Shown piece after piece: positions 4,948 to 56,329 of a stretch of 58,370 nucleotides of DNA. Location of the stretch: IMG/VR virus record IMGVR_UViG_3300042691_048764, positions 1-58,370 of that record; one strand, given 5' to 3'. Below the pieces are notes generated by a model that worked only from the letters and a program-made list of their open reading frames with translations, was not told where the DNA came from and searched no databases. Made by a program: the position numbers and the translations under genes. The number at the start of each line of letters is the position of its first letter. The stretch's first letter is position 1. Source of the stretch: a virus.

Positions 4948-5022
4948 GCAGCGTTGGTCAAGGGGTTAAGACACCTCCCTTTCACGGAGGAATCACGGGT
5001 TCGAATCCCGTACGTTGTACCA
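4948..5022 (+). tRNA. tRNA-Glu(TTC)
   Basis: Cloverleaf with acceptor GCAGCGT/ACGTTGT (two G-U pairs). The anticodon stem CCTCC/GGAGG has loop CTTTCAC, giving anticodon TTC. The T-arm is ACGGG-TTCGAAT-CCCGT and the discriminator is A5019. CCA is encoded (5020-5022), unlike in the other tRNAs here. Confidence 0.93.
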
Positions 5023-5038
5023 CAATAAAACGATAAAC

Positions 5039-5362
5039 ATGACAAGTCTAGTTATTCTACAGCTTATCGTCTCGTTATCTGTCTTATGGGTTTGGCTCAT
5101 GAGACGTGAAGCGGTGATATCTGAATTCGAAAGGTTTGGATTATCCAAACAAACACTTACCACAGTTGGTGCAGCAAAGATACTTCTTTCTCTAATGATG
5201 ATGATTTCCATCTGGTTCCCAGTAATCTCAATTCCTTCCACTCTGGGTATGACGTATATGATGATTGCAGCTCAGTACTATCACATGCGTTTTGACTCTC
5301 CTCTAGATAAAAGATTACCTTCTTTGGTTCTCTTGCTAATGTGTATTTTAATTCTAGTGTAA
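5039..5362 (+). CDS. DoxX-like small membrane protein
   Basis: 107 aa. An upstream in-frame ATG at 5015 lies inside tRNA-Glu, so the ATG at 5039 is chosen. Four hydrophobic segments, at about residues 3-20, 43-62, 65-80 and 92-107, with GAAKILLSLMMMISIWFP and AAQYYHMRFDSPLDKRLPSLVLLL between them, fit the DoxX_2-like layout of four-helix inner-membrane proteins. In bacteria these are poorly understood and sometimes linked to redox or sulfur metabolism. It is wedged between tRNA-Glu and tRNA-Asp with almost no spacer, so it may be co-transcribed with the tRNAs. The role in the phage is unknown. Confidence 0.65.
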   Translation: MTSLVILQLIVSLSVLWVWLMRREAVISEFERFGLSKQTLTTVGAAKILLSLMMMISIWFPVISIPSTLGMTYMMIAAQYYHMRFDSPLDKRLPSLVLLLMCILILV

Positions 5363-5368
5363 TAAAAA

Positions 5369-5442
5369 GGATCGGTAGTTCAGTTGGTTAGAATGCTGCC
5401 CTGTCACGGCAGAGGTCGCGGGTTCGAGTCCCGTCCGGTCCG
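5369..5442 (+). tRNA. tRNA-Asp(GTC)
   Basis: Acceptor GGATCGG/CCGGTCC, anticodon stem CTGCC/GGCAG with loop CTGTCAC (anticodon GTC), T-loop TTCGAGT, discriminator G5442. No CCA is encoded. Confidence 0.93.
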
Positions 5443-5446
5443 CATA

Positions 5447-5546
5447 GGTGAGCGCGAAGACGAAAGGCAACACAGCGTGATTGTGCGCACAGTACGCTTA
5501 AGCACGAGTAGAAACAAGGGAGGATTAGCTACCCTCCCGCCTCACC
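5447..5546 (+). ncRNA. structured RNA candidate, tRNA-like outline
   Basis: The ends pair as GGTGAG/CTCACC and continue as GCG/CGC after one bulged C, giving a closing stem of 9 bp. A 6-bp stem GGGAGG/CCTCCC (5518-5523, 5533-5538) sits in the T-arm position, and GCGT/ACGC (5475-5478, 5494-5497) in the anticodon position. There is no TTCGA loop and no clear D-arm. It is GC-richer than the flanking genes. It could be a degenerate tRNA or a stable RNA like T4 species 1 and 2, which lie in the T4 tRNA cluster. Confidence 0.4.
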
Positions 5547-5555
5547 AAAAATAAA

Positions 5556-5689
5556 CCAGTCCGCAGGCCACTGGATCGAAACACAGAGAACGCCTCTCGG
5601 AATAGAGTTCACTCTTGCACAGGCGCACCAGTCTCTTCTCATCGTTTGGAGACAAAGTTGGCAACTCTTACATGTGGTTCAAAAGTTGC
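5556..5689 (+). other. non-coding stretch with four consecutive hairpins
   Basis: Four helices follow one another: CCAGT/ACTGG (5556-5574), CGCCT/AGGCG (5591-5625), GTCTC/GAGAC (5631-5653) and GCAACT/AGTTGC (5661-5689). No plus-strand ORF or standard tRNA was found. The density of hairpins suggests that the RNA itself matters, but I cannot name a family. Confidence 0.35.
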
Positions 5690-5694
5690 AAAAT

Positions 5695-5865
5695 AGTCAG
5701 GTGGCGAAAGGAGGGTGAAGTCCATCCTCGAGGTAGACGCAAATTGAGATAACAGAGCAGTGTGTCTGTCTTGGAGTGGACACATAATGCTACGCTGTGT
5801 TACACAGATTAACCAAGTGACGAGTGTATGCTCAATTTTTACAGGTTCGAATCCTGTCCTGGCTA
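5695..5865 (+). tRNA. tRNA-like gene with D-loop and anticodon-arm insertions
   Basis: 171 nt. Acceptor AGTCAGG (5695-5701) pairs fully with CCTGGCT (5858-5864) with one G-U pair. The T-arm ACAGG-TTCGAAT-CCTGT (5841-5857) is canonical and the discriminator is A5865. The D-stem is GCG (5704-5706) with CGC (5738-5740), and TGGCGAAAG plus GTAGACGC would make a normal Leu-like D-arm. About 22 nt (5711-5732, GAGG...CCTC hairpin) separate G18 from G19. The anticodon stem AAATTGAG/CTCAATTT (5741-5748, 5831-5838) encloses 82 nt with its own hairpins (TGTGTC/GACACA, CTGTG/CACAG). The anticodon cannot be assigned without knowing what is removed. Confidence 0.6.
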
Positions 5866-5991
5866 CTGAATCAGTTTGCCCGTGGGAACGGATACGTATC
5901 GGGGTTTTTGAACCCTGAGTATCTTCTGTAATCAAAATCCAATCACTGCTCACTGGTGTTTGGGCTAAATGTGAGAAAAAAACGGGAACAC
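5866..5991 (+). other. non-coding spacer with palindrome and hairpin
   Basis: This spacer holds the perfect palindrome GATACGTATC (5891-5900) and hairpin GGGTT/AACCC (5902-5906, 5911-5915). No gene was seen. The hexamer GATACG recurs in the structured segment at 6276-6281. Confidence 0.4.
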
Positions 5992-6062
5992 AGTGGCATG
6001 GTGTAACGGCAGCACTACAGATTTTGATTCTGTCTGTCCTGGTTCGAATCCAGGTGTCACGT
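5992..6062 (+). tRNA. tRNA-Gln(TTG)
   Basis: Anticodon stem ACAGA/TCTGT with loop TTTTGAT gives anticodon TTG. The D-stem is GTG/CAC, and the T-arm CCTGG-TTCGAAT-CCAGG is canonical. The acceptor pairs at positions 2-7, with an A-G mismatch at 1-72. A weak first pair is typical of tRNA-Gln, which supports the call. The expected discriminator G is not obvious (T6062). Confidence 0.85.
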
Positions 6063-6104
6063 CTAAATTTCTATTACCTAAAAATAGGTATATAGTCGGA
6101 AATT

Positions 6105-6178
6105 GGACCCTTAGCTCAGTTGGTTAGAGCATCTGACTCATAATCAGAGGGTCGCTGGTTCGAGCCCAGCAGGGTCCA
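6105..6178 (+). tRNA. tRNA with CAT anticodon (elongator Met or Ile2)
   Basis: Acceptor GGACCCT/AGGGTCC, anticodon stem TCTGA/TCAGA with loop CTCATAA, T-arm GCTGG/CCAGC, discriminator A6178. The body, especially the GGxCCCT acceptor and the GGTCGCTGG segment, looks closer to the Ile2 (AUA-reading, lysidine-modified) type than to E. coli elongator Met. Sequence alone does not settle this. Initiator features are absent. Confidence 0.9.
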
Positions 6179-6189
6179 CATCTTAAAAA

Positions 6190-6270
6190 GCGGAAGTAGC
6201 TCATTTGGTAGAGCGATAGCCTTCCAAGCTATAGGTGGCCGGTTCGAGCCCGGTCTTCCGGTCTTCCGCT
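6190..6270 (+). tRNA. tRNA-Gly(TCC) with duplicated 3' acceptor strand
   Basis: Acceptor 5' strand GCGGAAG, D-stem GCTC/GAGC, anticodon stem ATAGC/GCTAT with loop CTTCCAA (anticodon TCC), and T-arm GCCGG-TTCGAGC-CCGGT. The 3' acceptor strand occurs twice in tandem. CTTCCGG plus T (6255-6262) directly follows the T-stem but leaves G1 opposite G72. CTTCCGC plus T (6263-6270) pairs perfectly. Using the first copy, the tRNA ends at 6262. Confidence 0.88.
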
Positions 6271-6379
6271 CACCCGATACGTGAGTGAAAGCAAGCAGCG
6301 TATCTCTAGTTAGGGTCTTTCAGCCAGTGAACTAGGGTCCGAACGTCATTGTTCGGTGAGAGTACCAGGAAACCTCTCA
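6271..6379 (+). ncRNA. structured RNA candidate between tRNA-Gly and tRNA-Arg
   Basis: Perfect stems follow one another: GATACG/CGTATC (6276-6281, 6299-6304), CTAGTT/AACTAG (6306-6311, 6330-6335), CCGAAC/GTTCGG (6339-6344, 6351-6356) and TGAGAG/CTCTCA (6357-6362, 6374-6379). An alternative closing stem CTCACC/GGTGAG (6269-6274, 6355-6360) also exists. There is no ORF, and the stretch is GC-richer than the coding regions. The family was not recognised. Confidence 0.45.
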
Positions 6380-6383
6380 TTTT

Positions 6384-6482
6384 GGTCTCATAGTTCAATG
6401 GATAGAACGACTGCCTTCTCGGTCTATATTGAAAAGTATTACCGAGAAGCAGTGGATCCAAGTTCGATTCTTGGTGAGACTA
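6384..6482 (+). tRNA. tRNA-Arg with 27-nt insert in the anticodon loop
   Basis: Acceptor GGTCTCA/TGAGACT, D-arm GTTC/GAAC, anticodon stem ACTGC/GCAGT (6410-6414, 6449-6453), T-arm CCAAG-TTCGATT-CTTGG, discriminator A6482. The anticodon loop is 34 nt instead of 7. Removing 6420-6446 leaves CTTCTAA, the standard Arg(TCT) loop for AGA codons. Removing 6419-6445 leaves CTTCGAA, Arg(TCG). The insert plus neighbours forms a 7-bp perfect hairpin TCTCGGT/ACCGAGA. At 27 nt it is far too short for a group I or II intron. Confidence 0.85.
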
Positions 6483-6501
6483 CAAAAAAATAAAATAAAC
6501 C

Positions 6502-6576
6502 GCTCTCGTAGCCCAATTGGCAGGAGGCAATAGACTTAGGATCTATCCAGTGTCGGTTCGAATCCGACCGAGAGTA
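6502..6576 (+). tRNA. tRNA with TAG anticodon (Leu, short variable loop)
   Basis: Acceptor GCTCTCG/CGAGAGT, anticodon stem ATAGA/TCTAT with loop CTTAGGA (anticodon TAG, reading CUA), T-arm GTCGG-TTCGAAT-CCGAC, discriminator A6576. TAG and G37 fit Leu, but the variable loop is only 5 nt (CCAGT), whereas cellular bacterial tRNA-Leu has a long variable arm. Confidence 0.85.
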
Positions 6577-6594
6577 CAAAAATAAAAAAATCTT

Positions 6595-51954: not shown

Positions 51955-52509
51955 ATGGCAGGATTATCACACTATCAGAATTCAATCTCGGCGATGAATA
52001 AATTCGAACCGGTATTTCTAAACCAGTTCGAAGTTAATATCATACCACCTTCCGCTATTCCTGGTGGAGAAATACTTCTTCAGCATGTTACCAAAGTTAG
52101 TGGTCTTGCTTTGAATAAAAATCCTGGTATAGTAACACAAAAGTATAAATTTGCTAAAAGAAACTATGCCGGAGCTAAACCCGATAACACATATATGGAT
52201 GTGAGCTTAAGCTTCACTGTAAACTTAAACGAATCTAATTCCATGTACGTTTTTAAAACATTGAGACAATGGAGTGATCTTATCTACAATCCATTAACTG
52301 GTGCACAGGGTCTAAAAAGTGACTATACAGGAACAATAGTGATTTCCATGTTTAATAAGGCAGGTGATGTGTATAGAAGGGTAACTTGTAAAGATTGCTT
52401 CCCATCTAAACCTTTAACTGCTATGAGCTTAAACTACACATCAACCGATATTTACAAGGTAAACGATATGGTTTGGGCAGTTGATTACTGGGAAGATCTA
52501 TTCCTATAA
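51955..52509 (+). CDS. 19: tail tube protein (gp19-like), first copy
   Basis: 184 aa. FEPVFLNQFEVNIIPP, VTKVSGLAL, RNYAGAKPDNTYMDVSLSFTVNLNESNSMYVFKTLRQWSDLIYNPLTG and the late VWAVDYWEDLFL match T4-like tube subunits. They polymerise inside the sheath to form the DNA conduit. A weak GATAAATATAAAA element lies 6-18 bp before the start. Confidence 0.92.
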   Translation: MAGLSHYQNSISAMNKFEPVFLNQFEVNIIPPSAIPGGEILLQHVTKVSGLALNKNPGIVTQKYKFAKRNYAGAKPDNTYMDVSLSFTVNLNESNSMYVFKTLRQWSDLIYNPLTGAQGLKSDYTGTIVISMFNKAGDVYRRVTCKDCFPSKPLTAMSLNYTSTDIYKVNDMVWAVDYWEDLFL

Positions 52510-52527
52510 AAATATCATAGAAAATAA

Positions 52528-53103
52528 ATGGCAGGCTTACCACATTTTACTAACTCCAGAGCGGCGATAAACAACTTCGAACCCGTATTTTTAAATCAGT
52601 TTGAGGTTTTAATAACACCTCCTGCTGGAATAATCGATGCAAATACAACATTCAAGGGGGAATCAATATTAACACAACAGGTTAAATCGATAAGTGGTTT
52701 AGCTGTAGATATACTCCCAGGAAACTCTGTTGAGCAGACGTATAAGTTTGCTACCCGCAGATACGCAGGAGGAGAGCCTTCAACCAGTGATATGACTTTA
52801 AGTATGGAATTTGAGGTTAACTTAAACAACCAAAATTCTATGACAGTCTATAAAATTTTAAGACAGTGGTCAGACCTCATATACAATCCTCTAACTGGAG
52901 CTATGGGAGTAAAATCTGATTATGTTGGTTCAATGGTAATCTCTATTTTCAACAAAAGAGGTGACGTTTTCAGAAGGATTAGAATGCCATCTTGCTTCTT
53001 GAACGATGCAATAAATACAATGGAACTTGACTACGAACAATCTGCTATATACACTTTAAGTGCTAGCTGGATCGTCGATTATTGGGAAGATCTTTTCATA
53101 TAG
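52528..53103 (+). CDS. 19: tail tube protein (gp19-like), second copy
   Basis: 191 aa. It is a diverged paralogue of the preceding gene with the same order of blocks (FEPVFLNQFEVLITPP, SGLAVDILPG, RRYAGGEPSTSDMTLSMEFEVNLNNQNSM, ILRQWSDLIYNPLTG, WIVDYWEDLFI). It has a few extra residues after the first strand. The start lies 18 bp after the first copy. It could form the tail end or terminator rings, or be mixed into the tube. Confidence 0.9.
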   Translation: MAGLPHFTNSRAAINNFEPVFLNQFEVLITPPAGIIDANTTFKGESILTQQVKSISGLAVDILPGNSVEQTYKFATRRYAGGEPSTSDMTLSMEFEVNLNNQNSMTVYKILRQWSDLIYNPLTGAMGVKSDYVGSMVISIFNKRGDVFRRIRMPSCFLNDAINTMELDYEQSAIYTLSASWIVDYWEDLFI

Positions 53104-53132: not shown

Positions 53133-53157
53133 AGAGGTCATTTTGGCCTCTTTTTTT
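53133..53157 (+). terminator. intrinsic terminator
   Basis: Stem GAGGTC/GGCCTC with an ATTTT loop and 7 T. It ends the sheath-tube unit. Confidence 0.85.
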
Positions 53158-53193: not shown

Positions 53194-54285
53194 ATGGATA
53201 TGATTAATTTATCTCCAGAGGAGATATTAAAAAAAAGAGAAGAACTCGGTGGACTGGTTTACGATGAGCCCGAATCCGATTCTCCTGAACCTACCCCAGA
53301 TCTTAGAAGCGATGAAATTCCTAAAATTGATGCACAAGATTCATCTGAATATTCGAATTCCCAAAGATCTTTTAATCCTGGTCAAGACCAAGATGATCAG
53401 GCTAAAACTTCTTTTGGCAAATCCCAAATTCATAAGCAAAACACTCTGTCTGAGAATGGGTGGAAAAACATACCAGTTGAGGCTTTACCAACCAGGGGTC
53501 AATACTATCCTTACGGAACAAGAATCTCTATTAGAGCAGCGGAAGTAAGGGAGATAAGACATTTTTCAACAATAGACGATGAGGATAGGATAGACATTGA
53601 GGAAAAATTAAGCTATGTTCTAGATAGATGTCTTAGAATGGAATTTCCTAATGAGGGATTAATTTCATATAAGGATCTAAAGCAAGAGGATAGATTTTAT
53701 TTAATATTATCTATTAGAGATCTGACTTTCGTAAAGGGAGAGAACTCCATATTATTAAAGACTAAAAATAAGTGTAAAGAAACTCCAGAGTGTCCATTCA
53801 ATAACGGAATAGAACTTAGAACAGGAGCATTAGATTCATATCGGATAGAGGAAAAAATCATAAAACATTATAACACTCAAACTGGATCCTTCGTTTTTAA
53901 CATCAAAAAGACCGGTAAAAAAGTGGAGATGTTTATTCCTAGTATAGGAGTAACCCAAGCAATATCATCTTACGTAAGCCAAGCCTCCAGAATGGGTATA
54001 ACGATAGACGAGGGATTTTTACAGATCTCCCCATTTTTATTTAATGACTGGAGGGATTTGAATTTTGATCTATACGTCAATAAAATGCGTGAGTGCGATT
54101 ATCTAACAAAAGAAGAATATAGCGTTTTGTTTGAGCTTTCTCGAAGAATTAAGGTTGGAACTAAGATGGAGGTTAAGCAAAATTGCCCAATTTGCGGTGG
54201 AATGGAGGTCACCGCTGATATAACATTTCCCCAAGGGCTACGATCTCTTTTCGTTGTTTCAGATATCTTTGGAGAACTACTTTGA
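53194..54285 (+). CDS. 26: gp26-like baseplate/tail chaperone protein
   Basis: 363 aa from the ATG at 53194; the upstream in-frame start at 53143 overlaps the terminator and is rejected. Residues 1-95 are acidic and disordered. IPVEALPTRGQYYPYGTRISIRAAEVRE, FYLILSIRDLTF, a Cys pair (CKETPEC), and the late NCPICGG with FPQGLRSLF follow the order of blocks in the T4 gp26 family (baseplate hub). Location between tube and tape-measure-like genes is the classic place of a tail assembly chaperone. It ends in CTT TGA, a +1 frameshift candidate into the next ORF. Confidence 0.72.
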   Translation: MDMINLSPEEILKKREELGGLVYDEPESDSPEPTPDLRSDEIPKIDAQDSSEYSNSQRSFNPGQDQDDQAKTSFGKSQIHKQNTLSENGWKNIPVEALPTRGQYYPYGTRISIRAAEVREIRHFSTIDDEDRIDIEEKLSYVLDRCLRMEFPNEGLISYKDLKQEDRFYLILSIRDLTFVKGENSILLKTKNKCKETPECPFNNGIELRTGALDSYRIEEKIIKHYNTQTGSFVFNIKKTGKKVEMFIPSIGVTQAISSYVSQASRMGITIDEGFLQISPFLFNDWRDLNFDLYVNKMRECDYLTKEEYSVLFELSRRIKVGTKMEVKQNCPICGGMEVTADITFPQGLRSLFVVSDIFGELL

Positions 54286-54457
54286 TCTTAAATTTAGGCT
54301 CTGGAAAGAGCACGGGCTAGATCCTAAATGGCTAGAGACTATCCCATTTTACGAGTACCAAATATGGGTTGACAAATTAAACGAACTTATTGAAAAACAA
54401 AATCAAGACACTATGGAGAGCGAGGGTAAAAAGCAGGTCTTTAGTTTTACAAAATGA
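54254..54457 (+). CDS. chaperone extension ORF in the +1 frame
   Basis: 67 aa as an independent ORF from a TTG. More likely it is a frameshift extension. YFDLKFRLWKEHGLDPKWLETIPFYEYQIWVDKLNELIEKQ looks like the short helical extension domains of tail assembly chaperones. It overlaps the gp26-like gene by 32 bp. A +1 slip at CTT TGA (54280-54285) would give a fusion of 363 plus 57 residues. T4 has a separate gp51 at the equivalent place in function. Confidence 0.6.
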   Translation: MFQISLENYFDLKFRLWKEHGLDPKWLETIPFYEYQIWVDKLNELIEKQNQDTMESEGKKQVFSFTK

Positions 54458-54502: not shown

Positions 54503-56329
54503 GTGATTCAAGAAAAAATTATATCCCAGTTATTAGACCCAAATAGAGGCATTTCTTCTGTTTTGGAATCACAAATCTCAGACAAAGGATCTGTTGATAA
54601 GTATAACGGTTCTTTTAATAAAATATCAGGGGCGTTTCAAATCGGGGGTATTCCAGGAAAAGATGGAAGATATTTGGTTGGTGAAAACGGGCCAGAAATA
54701 GTTAAATTACCTAAAGGGTCAGCAGTGATACCTTTAAATATTTCAGACCTGATAGATGGTCTCAAAAAATTTCCTGAATTATCAGATTATATAAAGGGAG
54801 AGGATCTAGAACTCTTTGCTGATCCTAATAATCCCTCTGTCTTAATGGATGGCAGGGGTAAAATATCTTTGAATGAGCTTCAAAGAAAATATGACGATAT
54901 GTCAAAGGAGCAGGGGGATTCTGGCATTTTGGATAAAAGAATCTCAGATCAGCTTAGTGAACAGGTGGATCTTTTGAAGGATCTTAAATCCTTGGCGCAA
55001 AAAAAAATAGCTGATTCTATTAAAACAATAGAAACAGAAAGAGATAGGGTTTTAAAGGACTATGGAGAGGATGACGCCGAGAGTTATCGTAGTTTGGCTT
55101 CCAAATTAATCGACGCCATTCCTAAAAACTATATTAATCCTTTAACCTCGGCTAAAATGGATTTAATTGCAGCTAAATCTATTTCTGCAGGTAAAGAATT
55201 AAAATCAAAAAACAAAGGTGAAGAAATAGTATCAGGTAAAAATCTCGGGGAAATTAAAAAACTGGGCGGTGAAAAAATCTTAAAACAATTAAGTAAGGAG
55301 GATCCTGAAATTTATCGTAGGGTTACTGAAATTGTAAATTCAAATTTAGACTCTTCGATAAAGGGGGGGAGACCAAATGAAGAAAAATCGGGAATTTCTG
55401 ATGTTTTAAATATAGCTAATGATTTAATCAGATCTATTAGAAAGAATCCCACCTTTGCTTCTGGAGAAACACAAGAAAAGTTTTTAAATAACGTAGAAAA
55501 GTACGAATCCACAAAACCTCAACTCGATATAATTAAATCCTCCCCCGAAATTCTAGGAAGCTTTATGACTGGGGGACTGGCAACATCTAGCGGTAACTAT
55601 TTGGTTGGTGAAAACGGACCAGAGCTTATAAAAAATGTACTGGATCCTTCGTCTTATCTTTCTGGGGATCCATCATATTTTTCAAAAATATCTAAATCCC
55701 CCTCAAGTCTTTCTTCTATACAAGGAAATCCTTTATCTTTTATAGAAAATCAAATTAGTGCAAATGCATTAAAGAGTGAATTGAATCCAGCGTTATCTAA
55801 TCAGCCTTCAGCCTCACTAAATAATTTTTCTTCTTATCTGACTAATCCCACACCTTCTGATATGTCTAAGGGTGTTTACAACAGCGGATCATCTATAGAT
55901 TCGCAAATTTATCCGTCTGCTACAGTGCTAAAAAATGAGGAGAATCCTTCAACACAGCCAGCGGTATTAAAAAACACAGTGACTCCTTTAACTGAGACTA
56001 AGAGAGAAACTAAGCCTTCAGTAAATGAGAGTATAGATAAATTAAAAACAGATCTCGTAGATGTCTTTAAGAAGAAGTCAGAAAATGAGATGTCTCCAAC
56101 GGTAAGTCAGGAATCTGATAAATCCCAGACTCCAATGGGAAGCGCCACAGCAACTTCAGAATCTCCGGCCCAGCAAGGACCCCCTGGTAAGAATGAGTTG
56201 TCCAAAGATCTCCAGAATGATTTAGCTGACATAAAATCTCTCCTTGGAAGGATATCTTCACTTTTAGAAGGTCCTTTAGAGTTCTCCGCTATAGAAAGTC
56301 CATTTAGACCTGATTCCAGAAAGGTGTAA
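54503..56329 (+). CDS. tape-measure-like tail protein
   Basis: 608 aa from a GTG start. GGIPGKDGRYLVGENGPEIV, ending KGSAVIPLNI (residues about 48-80), and a second GNYLVGENGPELI (about 363-375) are the GENGPE-type motif common near the ends of phage tape measure proteins. The remainder is helical and Ser/Lys/Asn-rich, with a long Pro-Ser-rich stretch (about 400-560). It lacks a long hydrophobic segment, so it may be a hub or tail lysozyme-linked protein instead. Gene order after the chaperone pair supports a tape measure role. Confidence 0.6.
   Translation: MIQEKIISQLLDPNRGISSVLESQISDKGSVDKYNGSFNKISGAFQIGGIPGKDGRYLVGENGPEIVKLPKGSAVIPLNISDLIDGLKKFPELSDYIKGEDLELFADPNNPSVLMDGRGKISLNELQRKYDDMSKEQGDSGILDKRISDQLSEQVDLLKDLKSLAQKKIADSIKTIETERDRVLKDYGEDDAESYRSLASKLIDAIPKNYINPLTSAKMDLIAAKSISAGKELKSKNKGEEIVSGKNLGEIKKLGGEKILKQLSKEDPEIYRRVTEIVNSNLDSSIKGGRPNEEKSGISDVLNIANDLIRSIRKNPTFASGETQEKFLNNVEKYESTKPQLDIIKSSPEILGSFMTGGLATSSGNYLVGENGPELIKNVLDPSSYLSGDPSYFSKISKSPSSLSSIQGNPLSFIENQISANALKSELNPALSNQPSASLNNFSSYLTNPTPSDMSKGVYNSGSSIDSQIYPSATVLKNEENPSTQPAVLKNTVTPLTETKRETKPSVNESIDKLKTDLVDVFKKKSENEMSPTVSQESDKSQTPMGSATATSESPAQQGPPGKNELSKDLQNDLADIKSLLGRISSLLEGPLEFSAIESPFRPDSRKV

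Follow-up and report, generated by a model that had tools for sequence, protein, structure and literature searches.

Organization of the locus

The window, by which we mean the whole 58,370-base stretch analysed (positions 1 to 58,370 of IMG/VR record IMGVR_UViG_3300042691_048764), is probably a fragment of a virus genome, and the virus is probably a large phage of Bacteroidota bacteria; the named phages matched in the analysis have mostly Bacteroidota hosts. The region under study comprises a gp26-like gene and an overlapping +1-frame extension, preceded by a gene for the sheath and a tandem pair of tail-tube-like genes, with the following features:

51955-52509: tail-tube-like gene 1 (phrog_32623 and phrog_45)
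52528-53103: tail-tube-like gene 2, similar to gene 1 (phrog_32623 and phrog_45)
53194..54285, + strand: gp26-like tail assembly chaperone, short form, 363 aa (PF12322, phrog_150, AlphaFold match)
54194..54215, + strand: hairpin GCGGUG[GAAUGGAGGU]CACCGC, 10 nt 5' of the slip site (pairing, stability, compensatory stems)
54204..54209, + strand: SD-like GGAGGU in the hairpin loop, of presumed function (GAG in 54/54, then G/A-T-C)
54226..54232, + strand: putative +1 slip site UUU CCC C, UUU to UUC and CCC to CCC (TTTCCC invariance, wobble frame change)
54232..54285, + strand: short-form tail, 17 codons plus stop, overlapping the +1 frame (both frames read)
54233..54457, + strand: +1-frame extension of the predicted long form, 74 codons plus stop, with a gp51-like domain (phrog_634, profile-profile alignment across the junction)
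54280..54285, + strand: CTT TGA, previously proposed as an RF2-like site; a by-product of dual coding, not conserved independently of the +1 frame
54503..56329, + strand: next gene, possible tape measure protein (weak phrog tape-measure matches)

The start of the short form is placed at ATG 53194, from which the N-terminus is conserved in relatives; a TTG at 53143 would lengthen the reading frame. The gene order may be that of a G/GT-type pair, with tail tube genes on the 5' side and a weakly tape-measure-like gene on the 3' side. The first-pass annotation had placed the tape measure gene directly next to the pair; the 608-aa open reading frame found there shows weak phrog matches to tape-measure profiles and is a possible tape measure gene. 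Elsewhere in the window (4948-6577), six tRNA genes are encoded, for Glu, Asp, Gln(UUG), Met, Gly and Leu(UAG), with none for Pro or Phe among them.

Homology of the short and long forms

The short form matches PF12322 with an E-value of 0.001, which lies below the curated cut-off, and phrog_150 (gp26) with an E-value of 4e-4. Among PDB entries, its AlphaFold model (mean pLDDT 77) is best matched by 2OB9, a tail assembly chaperone of HK97, with a middling Z of 5.7, the PDB comparison rows spanning mainly model residues 247-321, so that the rest of the model is little tested; the viral matches of the model include T4-like baseplate hub assembly proteins. The extension matches phrog_634 ('baseplate hub assembly catalyst', gp51) with an E-value of 1.6e-4 and, judged from this match and from its retention in close relatives, is real coding sequence.

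The profile of the window-family fusion aligns with that of cyanophage gp26/gp51 fusions over 266 columns (E 2.8e-9), crossing the junction, and these cyanophage fusions themselves match T4 gp26 and gp51. Both T4 proteins belong to PF12322 (8.8e-64 for gp26 and 3.9e-52 for gp51), gp51 carrying the phrog_634 domain in addition. By these profile comparisons, the short form is homologous to the T4 gp26/gp51 family (PF12322), and the gp26-like gene together with the +1 reading frame to 54457 appears to specify a tail assembly chaperone in two forms, one short and one long; a chaperone function in the window phage is presumed. In two relatives, L090 and L256, additional residues separate the slip site from the conserved domain of the extension.

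The putative slip site and the place of the frame change

Two families of junctions were compared, including (i) the close family, for which 80 relatives were fetched, giving 54 distinct junctions with the window included, and (ii) a second family of relatives of the uncultured-phage record LR745206, with 43 distinct junctions. Throughout the close family, variation falls on third positions of frame 0 as far as the last codon ahead of TTT, and from 54232 mainly on third positions of the +1 frame, continuing past the stop into the extension; the 50-odd nt from TTT CCC to TGA are read in both frames. The TTTCCC is invariant in 54/54 and 43/43 junctions of the two families; CCC accounts for 17% of the Pro codons and TTT for 73% of the Phe codons in close-family genes. 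Every second-family junction keeps TTT CCC and the extension, with frame 0 ending GAA TAA (once AAA TAA).

Beyond these families, TTT CCC is also found in PAU, pT24, LR756501 and LR756502, and the junctions without CCC read TTT CAA in the Lak phages and LR756500, TTT CGA in MaF61 and TTT CCT in L233 and L236. The widest common element across relatives is TTT-C, which fits a tRNA-Phe slipping from UUU to UUC. No TTT-C occurs at the junctions of MA9V-1, MA9V-2 and PTm1, so these phages would use another way; a search with MA9V-1 as query found no relatives.

The DNA signature alone picks out this chaperone gene. GAGGTC-N15-TTTCCC occurs once in the window against 0.01 expected, and a scan of IMG/VR for GGAGGTC-N15-TTTCCC-N3-GG, made without protein information, returned at least 120 stretches. 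Among the matches listed, 117 of the 119 scored are the chaperone junction, the extension motif being matched automatically in 116; L256 was included on inspection for its resemblance to L090, which has an insertion after the site, and L253 and L301 are chance matches.

An upstream hairpin with an SD-like loop

The codons TGC GGT ... GAG GTC ACC GC on the 5' side of the slip site are nearly frozen, and all 43 relatives that share the window's spacing form the six hairpin pairs. Compared with random synonymous recodings, the segment has the higher stability (p<0.05) in 20/22 thinned lineages and in 12/14 of the second family, a control segment giving 4 and 5, respectively; with GAG GTC held fixed, stability is individually significant in 13/28 lineages of the scan-derived set. 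Other lineages display alternative stems with matching arms, including GTGTGG/CCACAC, GTGCGG/CCGCAC, GCTGTGA/TCACAGC, GACAAGG/CCTTGTC, ACGAGGG/TCCTCGT and GCGGAGG/TCTCCGC. For two of the pairing registers, with 73 and 68 sequences, none of 500 shuffles and no slid register reaches the observed double-change cells and covariation scores, a comparison in which kinship among the sequences can also push scores above shuffles; a third register (18 sequences) contributes little. As the register was picked for each sequence by its best stem, the percentages paired lean towards structure. Folding of single distant genomes (PAU, Lak, MA9V and LR756500, with candidates chosen by eye) gave no convincing hairpin.

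A stimulatory role of the hairpin and its GGAGGU loop in the shift is probable: the RNA could refold once the ribosome has passed, pair with the 16S anti-SD, or do both. Known SD stimulators lie closer to the P site, at 3 nt in prfB and at about 10 nt for -1 sites; the GGAGGU of the loop is farther away. On 70S ribosomes, hairpins placed upstream act like SD duplexes and promote +1 shifting, as assayed at CUUUGA without RF2 (PMC6321510). The anti-SD is sequestered in Bacteroidia, which makes pairing of the loop with it uncertain; F. johnsoniae, with a sequestered anti-SD, nevertheless keeps the prfB frameshift with an SD-like sequence, and the Weeksellaceae, with an altered anti-SD, are without this prfB feature (PMC8710568).

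The Chryseobacterium phages MA9V-1 and MA9V-2 (L082 and L246), which form one lineage, have a junction with neither TTT-C nor GGAGG, and their host family reportedly carries an altered anti-SD (PMC8710568). The absence of the signal together with the altered host anti-SD would fit a stimulator that acts through the anti-SD, but comes from a single lineage.

As for other structures, a GAGGUC/GAUCUC stem around the slip site, spotted by eye, was dropped because several relatives, namely L078 and the AAATCTC group, disrupt it, and RNAalifold applied to the 3' side of the site yielded nothing beyond weak stems.

Mechanism and alternative explanations

The comparative evidence makes it very probable that a programmed +1 frameshift at TTT CCC produces a minor long form of a gp26/gp51-type chaperone. 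Most ribosomes would stay in frame 0 and stop at 54285, giving the short form, whereas some would slip one base forward at UUU CCC (54226-54231), the P-site tRNA-Phe exchanging UUU for UUC while CCC occupies the A site; translation would then continue in the +1 frame as far as 54457, appending the 74-residue gp51-like domain and giving a presumably minor long form. The hairpin 10 nt upstream, with its GGAGGU loop, would stimulate the shift. Since CCC also becomes CCN, tRNA-Pro could re-pair as well, with the same product.

The first-pass annotation had instead proposed an RF2-like +1 slip at CTT TGA, stimulated by a GGAG 5 nt upstream. Its reading of the letters is accurate: the gp26-like reading frame ends CTA CTT TGA (54277-54285), the +1 frame at this point continues as GAT CTT AAA TTT for 57 codons to the TGA at 54455-54457, the sole listed start of the downstream reading frame is TTG 54254, inside the first gene, and the GGAG lies where it was said to lie. 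The +1 direction and the G/GT-type fusion of chaperone and extension also stand, whereas the site and the mechanism do not, the frame change falling ~54 nt upstream and involving no competition with a stop codon. CTT TGA is intact in 47/54 close relatives; it is altered in the other seven (ATT TGA, TTT TGA or, in L037 and L042, no stop there) and absent from all 43 second-family members, which bear the same extension. The GGAG is AGAG in 36/54 close relatives, about two thirds, and a slip at CTT TGA would leave unexplained the +1 wobble that already prevails 50 nt upstream. The window has a slip codon plus UGA, but not one conserved as in RF2-type CUU UGA sites, and its variable GGAG lies farther off than their SD-like element at ~3 nt; the preservation of most of CTT TGA is attributed to the reading of the overlap in both frames, the +1 peptide there being [FY]-F-D. 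An RF2-like slip at 54280-54285 is almost certainly not the source of the extension. Very improbable, too, is a separate protein translated from a non-canonical or rare start within the first gene, perhaps aided by the GGAGGU, which as an SD-like element upstream of the extension would suit such a start, as would the TTG codons at 54254 and 54269 of the window. In PAU (L081), a +1-frame ATG 6 nt after GGGAGG, shortly before TTT CCC, is well placed and could start the extension independently; the second family has an in-frame ATG a few codons into the extension. Independent starts in relatives, together with an unconserved slip site, had been named beforehand as what would speak against the frameshift: CTT TGA is not the conserved element, but none of the 54 close-family junctions has an ATG, GTG or TTG among the first nine +1-frame codons counted from the slip site, 22/54 have a +1-frame stop directly before TTT, and TTG 54254 is TTA in 52/54. 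A separate start would moreover sit poorly with a TTTCCC frozen at the codon level and with a fusion homologous across its junction to T4 gp51, a single chain. Judged across the relatives, a canonical independent start does not explain the extension.

With the +1 slip at TTT CCC preferred, the identity of the slipping tRNA has to be weighed. A slip of tRNA-Pro on CCC, of the kind described for SPP1 and PSA, would leave site and product identical; CCC is invariant in the two main families in spite of being a minor codon, slips at CCC are known (PMC6316719; PMC5009743), and in Salmonella mutants tRNA-Pro brings about a +1 shift on CCC-CAA, which is also the context in the window (PMC3617221). 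In those mutants UUU-CAA shifts +1 as well, P-site tRNA-Phe or tRNA-Pro slipping where the A-site tRNA is limiting (PMC3617221). Distant relatives replace CCC by CAA, CCT or CGA while TTT-C stays, and a +1 slip of tRNA-Phe from UUU to UUC is therefore most likely, tRNA-Pro being an unlikely yet serious candidate. Two further mechanisms were set aside: transcriptional slippage, as the site has no homopolymer longer than 4, and -2 slippage, for which no re-pairing partner was seen.

Relation to known systems

The proteins are homologous to those of the T4-like gp26/gp51 system, which likewise has two forms, the longer of them bearing a gp51-like domain; the signals differ, with poly-T -1 sites there and a +1 site at UUU CCC N with an upstream hairpin here. 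In T4 itself, gp26 and gp51 are two genes on opposite strands. At the junction, most T4-like relatives examined have a -1 extension and the sequence T TTT TTC, or T TTT TTT in phiN3; the junctions concerned comprise L093-L096, L097-L149, L237-L239, L241, L243 and L245, from T4-like cyano-, pelagi-, vibrio- and other phages, and the cyanophage -1 junctions often show GAGGG about 10 nt upstream. PhaxI (L242, G ATT TTC) and Vibrio phage D492 (L244, A CTT TTC) have a -1 extension and no standard slippery heptamer. The work of Vladimirov, Gautam and Davidson (2022, doi 10.1016/j.virol.2021.11.003) reportedly deals with the gp26/gp51 tail assembly chaperones of T4-like phages. Since passages of the PRFect paper (PMC10885494) and of PMC12846349 cite Vladimirov et al. 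2022 on T4-like chaperone genes and poly-T -1 signals, the -1 signal and the T4-like chaperone forms are, as far as these passages go, already known.

Lambda G/GT likewise produces a long form by a frameshift near the end of the chaperone gene, but in the -1 direction and with another signal. SPP1 gene 17.1 and Listeria phage PSA share the re-pairing of CCC as CCN in phage structural genes; those shifts take place in tail tube or capsid genes and either coincide with a stop codon or precede a pseudoknot, whereas the more widely shared element here is UUU-C, with the presumed stimulator upstream. RF2 (prfB) shares the +1 direction and an upstream SD-like element. A +1 signal of this kind was not described in the literature searched, which left out Vladimirov et al. 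2022; the kind of frameshift is known, and this +1 signal, whose SD-loop hairpin lies on the 5' side, appears to be a new version of it. Whether the signal amounts to a new type of +1 stimulator, comprising a hairpin ~10 nt behind the slip codon, a loop that binds the anti-SD, Bacteroidota ribosomes with a sequestered anti-SD and a UUU CCC N that re-pairs both P- and A-site tRNAs, is a more tentative matter, to which we give slightly less than an even chance.

Significance

The finding would extend the frameshifting of tail chaperones in the T4 lineage to a +1 mechanism and to jumbo and freshwater phages, probably of Bacteroidota, and would point to a compact signal (SD-loop hairpin, 10-nt spacer and UUU CCC N) for ribosomes with a sequestered anti-SD. 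The +1 junction signature would also explain the truncated 'baseplate hub assembly catalyst' or hypothetical reading frames annotated downstream of these genes.
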